From a virus: DNA of 60,293 nucleotides. Below the pieces are notes generated by a model, which worked only from the letters and a program-made list of their open reading frames with translations, ran no database searches and was not told where the DNA came from. The position numbers were made by a program, and so were the translations under genes. The stretch covers positions 1 through 60,293 of the IMG/VR virus record IMGVR_UViG_3300044796_000664. The stretch is one strand, 5' to 3'. Shown one piece after another: positions 1,183 to 60,293 of this stretch; position 1 is the stretch's first letter; the number at the start of each line of letters is the position of its first letter.

Positions 1183-2205
1183 ATGAGCCACGTGCTGGTT
1201 TCCTACAAGCGCGAAGACGAGCAGCGCGTGGCGCTCTTGGTGGAGGCCTTGCGCGCGCACGGGCTGGATGTGTGGTGGGACCAGCGCCTGCCCGGCGGCG
1301 AATCCTGGCGCGAGAACATCTCCTCGGCCCTGGAGGAGGCCGGCTGCGTGGTGGTGGTCTGGACGCGCAATTCGGTCGGTCCCGAGGGCGGCTTCGTACG
1401 CGACGAGGCTAGCCGGGCCAAGGCGCGCGGCGTGCTGGTGCCGATCCGGATGGACGATGTGGCGCCGCCGCTGGGCTTCGGCGAACTGCAGGCTATCGAT
1501 CTGCGCCGCTGGAAGGGCGCGGCCAAGGATCCGTTCCTGCTCGACCTCGTCGCCGCCTGCCACGCCAAGCTGGCCGGTCAGCCCGTTCCCCCGGCCAAGG
1601 GCCCCGCCGCTCGGCTGATCCAGCGCGCGCGCAACGGCTCGATCACCGCGGCGCTGCTGGCGGCCATCTGGAGCATGGTCACCAACTACACTGGCGTTCA
1701 GGACAAGGTCTGCACCATTCCCATGCCCCAGCCGGCCCTGTCGGACACCTGCGGCGCCTTGGGTGTCGGCCATAGGCCCAGCCAGGCCGAGCGGCTCGCC
1801 TGGGCGGCGCGCACGCCCGGCAGCTGCGCCGACCTGCGCGCGCACATCGCCCGGTTCCCGAACGGCGCCTACCGCTCCATGGCCGCCGACCTGCTGGCGG
1901 CGGTGACCACGAACCGCGCCGCGCAATATGCGCCCAGTCCGCGGACCGCGCGGGGATATGTCCGCCAGTCCGAGCACGGCTTCGGCTCGGCCGCCGCCGC
2001 CCAAGCCGACGCGCGCACGCGCGCGCAGGTCGACGCGACCAGCCTCTGCGCGCCCCTCGACGCCAACGAGCGGCTGACAGGTGTGCGGGTCGCGCCCCTC
2101 GCCTTTGACTGCCGGAGCGGCGGCGAAGGCGGACGGATCTGCGCGCTCGATTATTCGGCGACCTGCCTCATCGAGAGCCATCCGCTGGTCGAGCGATGCG
2201 GATGA
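1183..2205 (+). CDS. TIR-domain protein with one membrane segment
   Basis: 340 residues. Residues 1-125 form a TIR domain: the opening HVLVSYKREDE strand-loop, DVWWDQRLPGGESW (BB-loop region), then the helix SSALEEAG, which carries the expected catalytic glutamate, and the VVVVWTRNS strand. Bacterial TIR domains commonly cleave NAD+ or make cyclic ADP-ribose signals in anti-phage defence. A hydrophobic segment lies near residues 152-168 (SITAALLAAIWSMV), followed by a Cys-containing C-terminal half of unknown fold that would lie on the other side of the membrane. An SD-like GGGGAGG precedes the ATG. The RyR-domain gene follows closely on the same strand, so the two probably form one operon. 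Enzymatic activity is inferred, not shown. Confidence 0.75.
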   Translation: MSHVLVSYKREDEQRVALLVEALRAHGLDVWWDQRLPGGESWRENISSALEEAGCVVVVWTRNSVGPEGGFVRDEASRAKARGVLVPIRMDDVAPPLGFGELQAIDLRRWKGAAKDPFLLDLVAACHAKLAGQPVPPAKGPAARLIQRARNGSITAALLAAIWSMVTNYTGVQDKVCTIPMPQPALSDTCGALGVGHRPSQAERLAWAARTPGSCADLRAHIARFPNGAYRSMAADLLAAVTTNRAAQYAPSPRTARGYVRQSEHGFGSAAAAQADARTRAQVDATSLCAPLDANERLTGVRVAPLAFDCRSGGEGGRICALDYSATCLIESHPLVERCG

Positions 2206-2265
2206 CCTTCGCCCGCGGCGTCGCGCCGGCCGACAGCATTGCACGCACCATCCTGCGTTGGCAGG

Positions 2266-4242
2266 GTGTCGGCGCTGAGCGCTAGGGCGGCCTGGGTGAC
2301 GCTGATCCCGCCCGAGATCGCGCACTGGGCCTTGCCGGCCCTGGCCGCTTGGGCGGGGCTCTGGCTCGCCTGGCTGGCGGTCCGCAATCCGCTGCGGTTG
2401 AGGTGGATAGCGCTGAAGGGCGACCATCTGGTGATCGCCGGCGACGAGGGCCTGGCCGCGCGCGTCGCCGCGAGGGCGCGGGCCGCGAGACAAAGGGTGA
2501 TCCTCTGGACATCGAAGGGGGGCGAGCGCTGGGTGCGCCGCGCCGCCAATCGCGGGGCGCCTCATGCGTCGCAGCGGCGGGCGGGCGGCGGGCTTGCGCG
2601 CCTGGGACTGGCGCGGGCGCGCGGTGTGCTCGTCGCCGGCGGCGACGATTCCGAGAACATCCGCCTCGCGCAGGCGGCGGCGGACGAGGCGAACCGGGTC
2701 CGTCCGCCTGGCGATCCGCTCGAGGTGATCGCCCGGGTGGACGACATCGACCTGCAGGCCTCGCTCAGGGCCCGCCTGGCGGCCGAGGCGCGCCATCAGG
2801 GCGCGCGCCTGCGCTTCGCTTCGGTTCCGGATATCACCGCCCGGGCGCTCTTCGTCAGCCAGTCGCTGGACCGGTTCACCCGTGTCGGCCAGGCCGGGCG
2901 CCTGGTGTTCCTGTTGAATTTCTCGCCCGTGCTGGAGCGGCTGGCGCTGCGCATGATCGTCGGCGCGCATTTTCGCGACGGCGTGCGGCCGGCGTTCGTG
3001 GTTCTCGACCCCGCGGCGGGTCGAAAGCGCGAAGTCTTCCTGGCGCGGAATCCGGGTGCCGAGGGCTTGGCGCGGATGGCTTTCGAGGAAGCGCCGGTCG
3101 ACCGGCCCGCCGAGGTCGGGGGCGCCCTCGCCTCGGCGATCGAGCGACATGGCCGGCCGACGCTGATCCTCGTCGATCCCGCCGACGCCGCCCGCGCTCC
3201 GTGGATCGGCGCCGCCGCGACCGCCTATTTTGGCCAGCGCGACGAGCCCTGCCCACCGGTGCATGCGCACATGCCGGGCGAACCGGACGCGAGCCAAGGC
3301 TGCAGCCTGTTCTCGTTCGGCGGCCTCGACCGGCTGGCGACGCCTGAACTTCTGCTGCAGGAGGAGAGCGATCTGTTGGCCCGTTCGGTGCACGAGTTCT
3401 ACCTCGAAGGGCAGCTGGACAAGGGCGACCAGATCGGCGCGCGATCATCGATGTACGAGTGGAGCGATCTGCCGGAGGTGGTGCGTGACGACAATCGCCT
3501 GGTCGCCGACTGCTATACGCTCAAGCTGCGCGACATCGGCGCGCGGCTGGCCGTCGGCGAGGCGGAGAGCCTGACCTTCGAGGGCGACGAACTCGAACAG
3601 CTGGCGCGCGCCGAGCATGAGCGCTGGATGGCCGCCCGGCGGGCGGAGGGCTGGGTCTACGGCCAGACCCGCGACGACGCGGCCAAGCGCCATCCGATGA
3701 TCGTCGCCTATGACGAGCTGACGGAGGAGGCCAAGGCGCTCGACCGCGAGCAGATCCGCATCATGGCGCGGCTGGTCCGCCAGGTCGGCCAGTGCGCGGT
3801 GCGTGATCTGGTGGTCGCCATCGATGTCGCGGGCGGGGATGGAACGGCGCTCGCCGCGGGGATGGGGGCGGCGGTGGCGGAGCTTGAGCGGCGCTATCCG
3901 GATCGCGCCATCGTCCTGCGGGGCTCCTTCGACAGCCCGGCCGCGCGGGCGGCGATGATGGCCGGCGCGAAGGCCGGCGCCTTCGTCCAGCTGACCCTTT
4001 CCAGCAACGCCGACCGTGTCCTCGACGGCCTCGACCGCGCGGCGCGCGCCGAGGCCCGGCAACTCTACCGAGCCTCCGATCGGTGGTTCGCCTTTTCCGG
4101 CGCGGATGGGGCCGAGGCCCGCCGTCGGGATTTCCTTCTGACCCAGGCGGAGGCGCGGATCGCCGCCGCCGACGCTGGTCCCAGCGGGCTGCCGACCATC
4201 ACCCTGGTCGGCCACGCCGCAAAGTTCGTGGGATCATCATGA
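2266..4242 (+). CDS. RyR-domain protein with TrkA-N-like region, partner of TIR protein
   Basis: About 658 residues from the GTG at 2266. A TTG at 2239 and a GTG at 2296 are alternatives. The N-terminus has a hydrophobic segment (WALPALAAWAGLWLAWLAV). Next comes a Rossmann-like TrkA-N region starting at DHLVIAGDEGLAARV with a second nucleotide-fold strand at RGVLVAGGDDSENI. Around residues 445-500 is a clear RyR motif (EHERWMAARRAEGWVYG...DDAAKRHPMIVAYDEL...REQIR). A C-terminal alpha/beta region (VVAIDVAGGDGTALAAGMGAA) is unassigned. RyR domains in bacteria occur in predicted nucleotide-signal conflict systems, so a sensor or effector role with the TIR protein is plausible. It lies upstream of the recombinase remnant and outside the current prophage. 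Confidence 0.7.
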   Translation: MSALSARAAWVTLIPPEIAHWALPALAAWAGLWLAWLAVRNPLRLRWIALKGDHLVIAGDEGLAARVAARARAARQRVILWTSKGGERWVRRAANRGAPHASQRRAGGGLARLGLARARGVLVAGGDDSENIRLAQAAADEANRVRPPGDPLEVIARVDDIDLQASLRARLAAEARHQGARLRFASVPDITARALFVSQSLDRFTRVGQAGRLVFLLNFSPVLERLALRMIVGAHFRDGVRPAFVVLDPAAGRKREVFLARNPGAEGLARMAFEEAPVDRPAEVGGALASAIERHGRPTLILVDPADAARAPWIGAAATAYFGQRDEPCPPVHAHMPGEPDASQGCSLFSFGGLDRLATPELLLQEESDLLARSVHEFYLEGQLDKGDQIGARSSMYEWSDLPEVVRDDNRLVADCYTLKLRDIGARLAVGEAESLTFEGDELEQLARAEHERWMAARRAEGWVYGQTRDDAAKRHPMIVAYDELTEEAKALDREQIRIMARLVRQVGQCAVRDLVVAIDVAGGDGTALAAGMGAAVAELERRYPDRAIVLRGSFDSPAARAAMMAGAKAGAFVQLTLSSNADRVLDGLDRAARAEARQLYRASDRWFAFSGADGAEARRRDFLLTQAEARIAAADAGPSGLPTITLVGHAAKFVGSS

Positions 4243-4314
4243 CGGCGGCCCGCTGGGTCCTGACGGTCGTGATGGAAGTCGGCGCGGCCGTCTTGCCGCT
4301 CGTTCGCGGCGCGC

Positions 4315-4905
4315 GCCGTAAGCCTGGCGTCTTCTCGGGCCTGCTCAAGTGCGGCTGGTGCGGGGCGTCCTACACCGCCTACCAGCGCCAATATCTGATC
4401 CGCGCCGCCTACCGCGAGAAAGGTCCCACCGCGTGCACGAACAGCCGCACCGTTCGCCGGCCGGACGTGGAGGCGCGCGCTGGAGGGCCTGCGCAGCCGC
4501 GTGCTCGCCCCGGGGACGCGGTGGCGGCCTACTTGCGCGCCTATCATGCCGCATGGGCCGAGGAAGACGCGACCGGCGACGCCCTATCGAACGCCGCATC
4601 GCCGAGCTGACCCGCGGCGTTGAGCGCACTGTCGACATGATCCTGGCCGGCGCGCCCGAGCCAGTCACCCTGCACCCGAGGGCGCCAGAGGCCTACAGCG
4701 GCCTGGCGGGGCGCCTGCAGGAGACCCTTGTGGAAGCCTTGTGGAGGACCGCGCCCTGGTCACCAGGATCGCCATCCATCCCAAAGGCGAACGCCGCGAC
4801 CATGGCTTCAACCTGATCGTGCATGGCGATCTCGCCCACTTCATTGAACCTACCCCTGACCCCCGCAAAGTGGGGGGGGGTCAGGTGGTAGCTGGGGGCG
4901 GAATC
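4315..4905 (+). pseudogene. Decayed 3' part of a serine recombinase
   Basis: Fragments in several frames match the C-terminal half of the intact recombinase at 58677-60293. In order they are: RKPGVFSGLLKCGWCGASYT (zinc ribbon, intact copy RRPGVFSGLLKCGVCGGSYT), then DAVAAYLRAYHAA, then PVTLHPRAPEAYSGLAGRLQ in another frame, then GFNLIVHGDLAHF and VVAGGGI in a third. Frameshifts and deletions separate the pieces, and the N-terminal catalytic domain is missing. It ends exactly at the attL core, as the intact recombinase ends at attR. It is most likely the relic of an earlier element that used the same tRNA site. Confidence 0.85.
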
Positions 4906-4906
4906 G
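4884..4906 (+). other. attL core of the prophage
   Basis: The 23 bases GGTGGTAGCTGGGGGCGGAATCG match 22 of 23 bases at 60248-60270. The right copy is the 3' end of a tRNA gene (acceptor stem and start of the T arm, antisense). The match stops after ATCG. Left of it is the recombinase relic and right of it is phage DNA. Confidence 0.85.
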
Positions 4907-5212
4907 TTCGCTGGCAACCCAGCCCTCCGTCAGTCGCCCGCGTGCGGCTCTAGCGGCCGCGGGAATCTAACCCAGCGACATTCAGCTTGGGAAGCGGGAT
5001 GTCTGGCCGAAGGATCAACGGCTTGGCTGTAAACAGGCCGAATCCTGGCCCCAACGAAATCAACAGCTTACGATGGGGATGTAAACGCCTGAGCGGCTCT
5101 AGCTCAAGGCGGCCCCAGTAGAACATGGTGTGAACATTGCCAGCGGATGATTCGCAGTTCATGTCAGTGGGGTCGACGCTCCTGTCGACACAACAGAAGG
5201 GACCCTGGTCCA
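4907..5212. other. Phage left end, no clear gene
   Basis: Starting in the att core, the recombinase reading frame stays open to a TAG at 4951-4953 and would encode about 15 extra residues (starting VRWQPS). In the excised circle this would be the recombinase C-terminus. A minus-strand frame 4950-5213 (87 codons) overlaps it, but I find no family or start support. GC content is lower than in the neighbouring genes. Confidence 0.5.
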
Positions 5213-58542: not shown

Positions 58543-58677
58543 ATGGCCGCGCCTCGCCCCATCCCTGCCGCGCCCCTACCGCCGGAGATCCTCCGGCTGG
58601 CCGAGGCGCTTGCGCGGGTGGTGGAGGAGGCGCAGTTTCGCCGCGAACCCAGGAAAGCCGCCGCCAAGGAGCGTTGA
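58543..58677 (+). CDS. Very small protein upstream of the recombinase
   Basis: 44 residues (MAAPRPIPAAPLPPEILRLA...KAAAKER), with a Pro-rich start and an amphipathic helix. Start two bases after the ASCH stop; its stop shares a base with the recombinase ATG (TGATG). Candidate accessory factor for recombination only by position. Confidence 0.5.
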   Translation: MAAPRPIPAAPLPPEILRLAEALARVVEEAQFRREPRKAAAKER

Positions 58678-60293
58678 TGCGCGCCGCCCTCTACGCCCGC
58701 TTTTCCTCCGATCGCCAGAACGAGCGCTCCATCGCCGACCAGATCGCGGTGCTAAGCCGGCACGCCGCCGGCCGCGGCTGGACGGTCAGCGCGGTGTTCT
58801 CCGACGCGGCGATCTCCGGCGCGGCCATGGCCAACCGGCCTGGCCTGATCGCAGCGGTCGAAGCCGGAGAGCGCGGCGAGTTCGAGATCCTGCTGTGCGA
58901 GGACGAGGACCGGCTGGCGCGCAACCTGGAGACCACGGCCCACGTCTTCAACCGCCTGCGCCACGCCGGCGTGGCCATCGCCACCCTGTCGAGCGACGCC
59001 ATCGGGGTGATGGAAGTGGGCTTCAAGGGCGTGATGGCCGAGATGTTCCTGGCCAACCTCAGCCAGAAGACCAAGCGCGGCATGCACTCCAACGCCGAGA
59101 AGGGCCTGGCCACCGGCTCGCGCCTGTACGGCTACCGCAGCGAGCCCGGCGGGGCGATGGCCATCGTCGAGGCCGAGGCGGCCGTGATCCGCCGCATCTG
59201 CGCCGACTACGCCGCCGGCGACACCGCCCGCCAGATCGCCGCGGCGCTGAACGTCGAGGGAATCCCCGGACCGCGCGGGGGGCGCTGGAACGCCTCGTCC
59301 ATCAACGGCAGCCGCCAGCGCGCCAACGGCGTGCTGCGCACCGACCTCTATGGTGGGGTGAAGGTGTGGAATCGACTCGAGGTGCGCAAGGATCCGCGCA
59401 CGGGCAAGCGCCGGCCGGTGATCCGCCCCGAGGCAGAGTGGCGCCGCGTCGAGGTCCCGGCCCTGCGCATCGTCGACGAGGCCGTCTGGGCGGCCGTCCA
59501 GGCCCGCCACGCCCGCGAGGCGCACCAGGCGCCGGCGAACCTGCTGCGCCGACCGGGCGTGTTCTCCGGCCTGCTGAAGTGCGGGGTCTGCGGCGGGTCG
59601 TACACGGTCTACACGACCGACAAGCTGATCTGCGCCACCCATCGCGAGCAGGGCGACAGCGCCTGCGCCAACCGCCGCACGCCCAGCCGCTCGGCGATCG
59701 AGACCCGCGCCCTGCAGGCCATCCGCGAGCAGCTGCTGTCACCCGAGGCGGTGGCCGCCTATGTGCGCGCCTTCCATGCGGCCCACCACGCCCGCCAGAA
59801 GGCCCTGGCGTCGCGCCGTCAGCCGCTGGAGCGCCGCCTGGGCGAGATCCACCGCGCGATCGAACGGGTGGTCGACCGCATCTGCGACGGCACGGCGAAC
59901 CAGGCCATGGAGGCCCGGATGATGGCCATGGACGCCGAGCGTCAGGCCATCGAGGCCGAGCTGGCCGAAGCCGACGCCCAGGCCCCGCCCGTCCAGCTGC
60001 ACCCCCAGGCCGGCCGCGAATTCGCCGGTATCGTCGCCGAGCTGCAGACCTGGCTGGCGCAGGCCGCCACCGGCGAGACCCGCGCCCAGCGCGAGCTGAT
60101 GGACGCCGTGCGCGGCCTCATCGAGAAGATCGAGATTATCCCCCTGACCCAGGACCGCGGCGGCCCCATCGACCTGGTCCTGCACGGCCGCCTCGCCGCC
60201 CTGCTCACCGGCGGGGAAGAACAGGCCTGGAACGCTGGGTTGGGAGCGGTGGTAGCTGGGGGCGGGATCGAACCGCCGACCTGTGGGTTATGA
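58677..60293 (+). CDS. Large serine recombinase (integrase)
   Basis: 538 residues from the ATG at 58677 (AAGGAG upstream). Resolvase domain with catalytic Ser10 in LYARFSSDRQ and RLARN downstream; Recombinase domain; zinc ribbon from residue ~300 (LKCGVCGGSYT, CATHREQGDSACANRRT); coiled coil; C-terminal VVAGGGIEPPTCGL. The last 15 codons run through the attR core into the antisense of the tRNA gene, so the C-terminus is encoded by host DNA in the integrated state. It catalyses insertion at and, with a directionality factor, excision from the tRNA gene. Confidence 0.93.
   Translation: MRAALYARFSSDRQNERSIADQIAVLSRHAAGRGWTVSAVFSDAAISGAAMANRPGLIAAVEAGERGEFEILLCEDEDRLARNLETTAHVFNRLRHAGVAIATLSSDAIGVMEVGFKGVMAEMFLANLSQKTKRGMHSNAEKGLATGSRLYGYRSEPGGAMAIVEAEAAVIRRICADYAAGDTARQIAAALNVEGIPGPRGGRWNASSINGSRQRANGVLRTDLYGGVKVWNRLEVRKDPRTGKRRPVIRPEAEWRRVEVPALRIVDEAVWAAVQARHAREAHQAPANLLRRPGVFSGLLKCGVCGGSYTVYTTDKLICATHREQGDSACANRRTPSRSAIETRALQAIREQLLSPEAVAAYVRAFHAAHHARQKALASRRQPLERRLGEIHRAIERVVDRICDGTANQAMEARMMAMDAERQAIEAELAEADAQAPPVQLHPQAGREFAGIVAELQTWLAQAATGETRAQRELMDAVRGLIEKIEIIPLTQDRGGPIDLVLHGRLAALLTGGEEQAWNAGLGAVVAGGGIEPPTCGL
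60248..60270 (+). other. attR core within the tRNA 3' end
   Basis: GGTGGTAGCTGGGGGCGGGATCG, 22 of 23 bases identical to 4884-4906. It covers the CCA end, acceptor 3' strand and part of the T arm of the tRNA gene. Confidence 0.85.
60250..60293 (-). tRNA. 3' half of a tRNA gene with CAT anticodon (tRNA-Met or Ile2), cut by the window edge
   Basis: Reading the minus strand: anticodon CAT (60290-60292), anticodon stem 3' strand CCCAC, variable AGGTC, T arm GGCGG TTCGATC CCGCC (five perfect pairs), acceptor 3' strand CCCAGCT, then ACCA encoded. The 5' half lies outside the window. U at position 72 argues against the initiator type. Confidence 0.85.

Follow-up and report, generated by a model that had tools for sequence, protein, structure and literature searches.

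Integration of the prophage swaps the C-terminus of its large serine integrase, and comparison of the integrated sequence with the predicted phage circle and with related elements indicates a real exchange in which a conserved C-terminal element is lost. The window (the whole stretch of DNA analysed, 60,293 bases) is one virus record that ends exactly at the recombinase stop codon and carries phage genes for terminase, major head protein, tail and tape-measure proteins, and primase. The recombinase frame opens with an ATG at 58677 and closes with a TGA at 60291-60293; because resolvase, recombinase and zinc-ribbon domains are present in this single chain (Pfam Resolvase, Recombinase and Zn_ribbon_recom with E values of 8.2e-24, 1.3e-18 and 1.9e-6, respectively), it was identified as a large serine integrase. 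A tRNA-Gly(CCC) called by ARAGORN within the phage at 41732-41818, where Rfam gave none at gathering score, may be spurious. The positions that matter for the swap are:

58677-60293, plus strand: large serine integrase gene, prophage form (538 aa, C-terminus VVAGGGIEPPTCGL; Pfam and sequence)
60234-60247, plus strand: P arm of attP, GCTGGGTTGGGAGC, within the integrase frame and in inverted repeat with 4910-4923
60251-60265, plus strand: attR core GGTAGCTGGGGGCGG, with the crossover inferred at GG 60260-60261 from the inverted-repeat centre
60250-60293, minus strand: 3' half of the target tRNA, antisense to the integrase frame (partial match to Rfam RF00005; ARAGORN on relatives)
4311-4896, plus strand: remnant of an older related integrase, C-terminal half, frameshifted (tblastn; three-frame translation)
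4887-4901, plus strand: second core copy at the left end of the element (exact 15-base copy), a tandem junction acting as attL
4897-4953, plus strand: circle tail-coding stretch past the crossover, GGIVRWQPSPPSVARVRL then TAG (sequence)
4910-4923, plus strand: P' arm of attP, GCTGGCAACCCAGC, in inverted repeat with 60234-60247

A first-pass annotation of this DNA had placed the att core within the recombinase frame and read the end of the integrated form as antisense tRNA codons. Both readings were borne out, as the frame runs through attP into a minus-strand match to the tRNA model RF00005 at 60253-60293 (model positions 32-71, E 0.023), where the protein end VVAGGGIEPPTCGL is coded; the score lies below the gathering score because the tRNA is truncated in the window. 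Among relatives in which the tRNA is whole, ARAGORN called a tRNA-Met(CAT) at the stretch coding the integrase end in 10 of 11 loci checked. The TGA stop of the integrase is the antisense of U33 plus the first two anticodon bases. Overall, the window prophage probably belongs to a family of large serine integrases targeting the 3' end of tRNA-Met(CAT).

Since attP sites of serine integrases are pseudo-palindromes, the inferred join of the two element ends could be tested by its inverted repeat. The P and P' arms, which stand at opposite ends of the 55-kb element, form an inverted repeat with 12 matches in 14 positions, a score equalled by 2 of 20,000 random right arms drawn from the window, whereas the arms of attR reached only 4 of 14. 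The centre of the repeat falls between core bases 10 and 11, a position shared with at least 12 of the 18 attPs examined, and the crossover was therefore placed at the central GG. As in other large serine recombinases, the attP is pseudo-palindromic and its crossover falls at a central dinucleotide (12/14, core GG); the repeat shared between the opposite ends confirms the inferred attP. Past the crossover, the frame runs for 10 codons in the prophage (GGIEPPTCGL) and for 18 in the circle; from the left core at 4887 it continues as GIVRWQPSPPSVARVRL to the TAG at 4951-4953, as first annotated, and the earlier estimate of a circle tail about 8 residues longer proved exact. The change is limited to residues past about 527 of 538, and all Pfam domains of the integrase finish by residue 349.

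Single-protein scans returned few matches (close relatives were absent from viral contigs and one distant relative was found in genome contigs), and relatives were therefore collected with the core DNA pattern plus three alignment searches of viral contigs, which gave about 120 distinct ones. A search of 398 genomes from the phylum of the distant relative returned no match at E 1e-100. In all but one or two of about 97 integrated relatives, the integrase frame crosses the crossover; about 85 use the same read-through frame as the window (tails such as VAGGGIEPPTCGL, VAGVGFEPTTFRL and VAEEGFEPPTQGL), about 11 use a second frame (GSGRGT or GSWGRDRTADLWVMNPPL, each followed by a stop) and one, L232, stops at a TAG inside the core, these classes being scripted except for L089, L107, L113, L191, L232 and L233, which were classified by hand. 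In a tree of 125 rows, the frame-1 members were dispersed over several branches.

That the enzyme has two state-dependent C-terminal forms, as had been proposed for the window, is supported there and borne out in relatives, where near-identical integrases were found in both states: L210 carries an attP tail with its own inverted repeat (12/14), and L213, L215, L221 and L224 carry the tRNA tail. The same layout is present in the virion genome of a cultured Rhizobium phage, RR1-A, with the tail VVAGERFEQSPQIILGRFVA. RR1-A is annotated with a tRNA-Met gene of its own (L242:35771-35847), and its integrase has an att layout of the tRNA-Met type; a pattern scan for further copies of its type of tail returned only a contig already known. 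Two further arrangements were observed among the relatives. In L073 and L059 (records G405 and G407), the tRNA 3' half to the right of the integrase loses its tRNA likeness past the anticodon (GGTTATGAAGCC...), a pattern suggestive of a second element inserted at the anticodon loop. In L049 and L097, the integrase C-terminus holds two core-like VAG motifs in frame (VVAGTYSRRYRQ... and MVAGAGFEPATFRL), which may represent a newer core preceded by the fossil of an attP tail.

The tails coded at attP resemble selected coding sequence, with a length that is kept within clades, selection being inferred from their conservation. In 18 attP tails the integrase frame stops 12-21 codons past the crossover (sd 2.4), compared to sd values of about 31 and 34 for the stop distance in the other two frames of the same sites; a geometric null gives about 1e-13 for this range, with the sites treated as independent, the range taken from the same data and 6 of the 18 sites having weak inverted repeats. 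The last nine residues of the tails are hydrophobic, with a mean of +0.99 versus -0.47 out of frame. Ala was the terminal residue in 10 of 18 tails and, in a second set that takes in some tandem junctions, in 9 of 16, versus 15 of 130 background proteins taken from the annotation of two such phages (Fisher 6e-5 and 1e-4, respectively). Between RR1-A and the L163 element, whose tail was read at the L218 junction, SPQIILGRF(V/A)A and the stop are kept, four of the five codon differences are silent, and identity past the stop is 15%. Two tails from another clade (55 and 53 aa) have ELID(V/L)GTWQIAL in common, with changes mostly at third positions and an alignment score of 91 versus -12 +/- 10 for shuffles. 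Members that pass the core in another frame (G412, L186 and L229) end in like tails (PTLAIAC, KVIRFCISRAA and MEFVFRRVA, each before a stop), which is not easily explained by a constraint on att-site DNA. With this conservation at the protein level across divergent phages, the idea that the tail matters to the enzyme gains support. A single universal short tail was rejected, as one clade has tails of 34-56 codons. AlphaFold2 models of the L044 attP form and the window's prophage form (mean pLDDT 83.6 and 80.4, respectively) share one body; the tail was disordered in both models, so that no structural role is visible, and folding of the tail as a strand onto the zinc domain was unsupported (low confidence).

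We propose that the 3' end of the integrase gene serves as the P half of attP and mimics the 3' end of the tRNA, so that the tRNA would be restored on integration, while the integrase frame continues through the P' half. With the crossover at the central GG within the frame, integration exchanges the tail coded by P' and beyond for about 10 antisense-tRNA codons, as the sequences of both states show. What the integration-phase enzyme loses in this way is a conserved C-terminal element, in which a proline-rich stretch precedes a short hydrophobic part that frequently ends in -A or -AA. The circle and prophage enzymes would thereby differ in an element affecting stability or the preference between integration and excision, and integration would remake its own catalyst at the moment of success. 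We lean, on balance, towards the tail swap being a built-in state switch of this kind, through which the enzyme could register whether the phage has integrated or is still free. More tentatively, the widespread tRNA-Met-targeting clade as a whole may possess a selected C-terminal switch, in which the attP tail sets integration behaviour or rapid turnover until it is replaced by the tRNA-coded tail, giving a control beside or instead of the directionality factor. Excision by large serine recombinases requires such a recombination directionality factor. An effect of the tail on direction is plausible, because fusion of the directionality factor is reported to control the direction of a serine integrase (PMC5737554) and the zinc domain is reported to be where the phiC31 factor binds (PMC5814800).

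An alternative explanation is that the swap acts as the removal of a degron, an ssrA-like hydrophobic-Ala-Ala tail coded at attP making the free-phage integrase short-lived and its loss stabilising the prophage enzyme. Ends in -AA, found in 7 of 18 and 5 of 16 tails compared to 5 of 130 background proteins, would suit this explanation, as would the predicted disorder of the tails and the example of phage BPs, whose repressor in its viral form bears an ssrA-like tag at the C-terminus and whose integrase, too, carries a proteolysis signal at that end (PMC4557955). However, such ends are not universal, as the window tail ends in VRL and others in LDF, VLK or RAS, and conservation reaches well upstream of the last residues; we consider a degron swap attractive but rather doubtful.

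The tail could also be a by-product, the integrase gene overlapping attP merely because P mimics the tRNA 3' end and the gene adjoins attP, in which case it would be a flexible leftover whose likeness between phages reflects the P' DNA and which has no functional effect. The proline-rich part of the tail does overlie the P' arm and may be a consequence of P' DNA constraint; in addition, tail sequence and length vary between clades, the prophage tail is whatever the tRNA encodes, and the disorder in both AlphaFold2 models would fit a leftover. Yet the hydrophobic segment, together with the stop, is located past the P' arm and shows conservation at the protein level, a like tail persists in members whose core frame differs, and terminal Ala is enriched in the second set of tails too; we judge a by-product rather unlikely.

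The left junction differs in part from what had been annotated. The left core had been read as attL, and it does have the same core and the same frame; the junction, however, is a tandem one with an older integrase remnant, which was found by tblastn (52% identity over 4311-4559, E 4.5e-22) and which, in three-frame translation, itself enters the core in frame. As this remnant lies left of the core at 4887, the 'attL' of the window is a junction between tandem elements and not virgin host DNA, with the layout older element with integrase remnant, core, present element, core, tRNA. The arrangement indicates that the locus is a tandem accretion site for elements sharing one att system. Left of the remnant, at 1183-4242, stand genes with a TIR domain (1183-2205) and a RyR domain (2239-4242), which the older element may have carried as defence cargo. 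Two comparable arrays were found. In record 2824993554, the P' arm beside L218 agrees at 11 of 14 positions with the P arm of L163, the integrase downstream, versus 6 of 14 for its own, and in record 2850037723 the P' arm beside L236 fits L211 at 12 of 14 versus 6 of 14 for its own; L218 and L236 were accordingly rejected as attP sites, since each is a tandem junction with the P' arm of the next integrase downstream. That the left core and tail of the window derive from host DNA or from the integrase remnant, with the true attP joining elsewhere, is very improbable, for although a remnant integrase does stand before the left core, the P arm of the window integrase and the P' arm at 4910-4923 pair at a level rarely reached by chance (12/14; 2/20,000), P' is that of the downstream element in the two other arrays, and the virion genome of RR1-A has the same layout.

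How serine integrases avoid reversal or waste is central to understanding lysogeny and to applying these enzymes as genome tools. In a family whose integration rewrites the C-terminus of its own integrase, two short constructs would suffice to test for a state-dependent switch. An integrase gene cloned from such a prophage carries the tRNA-coded tail and not the tail of the integrating enzyme.

We know of no C-terminal swap for large serine integrases with solved structures. Those of SPbeta (YokA), A118, phiC31 and TP901-1 have the same layout of catalytic, recombinase and zinc-ribbon/coiled-coil parts as the window enzyme; YokA aligns to profile positions 46-490, and among the matches listed none extends into the tail (past 490 of 524). 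We found no description of such a swap for large serine integrases in the open literature searched, of which coverage was partial; an integration-altered C-terminus is known in principle for tyrosine integrases (Mx8 and SSV) and for the BPs repressor. The Mx8 integrase is a tyrosine (lambda-family) integrase that loses 112 C-terminal residues. In Mx8 (and Mx9), attP lies within the integrase gene, which gains a new 3' end on integration, with activity, according to a review, modified and not abolished (PMC6070905). The window resembles Mx8 in that attP falls within the integrase frame and integration gives the protein a new C-terminus, and differs in that the enzyme of its family is a serine integrase and that 8 to about 45 residues are lost. 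In BPs, integration through an attP within a gene likewise removes a C-terminal tail, the ssrA-like degron of the repressor (PMC4557955); there the repressor is cut, whereas in the window family it is the integrase, for which a degron is only a candidate. The suicidal integrases of the SSV type, exclusively archaeal according to a review (PMC8371274), also have the attachment site in the integrase gene, but there a tyrosine integrase is split and inactivated, whereas the window enzyme changes at its extreme C-terminus only and keeps its catalytic domains whole.
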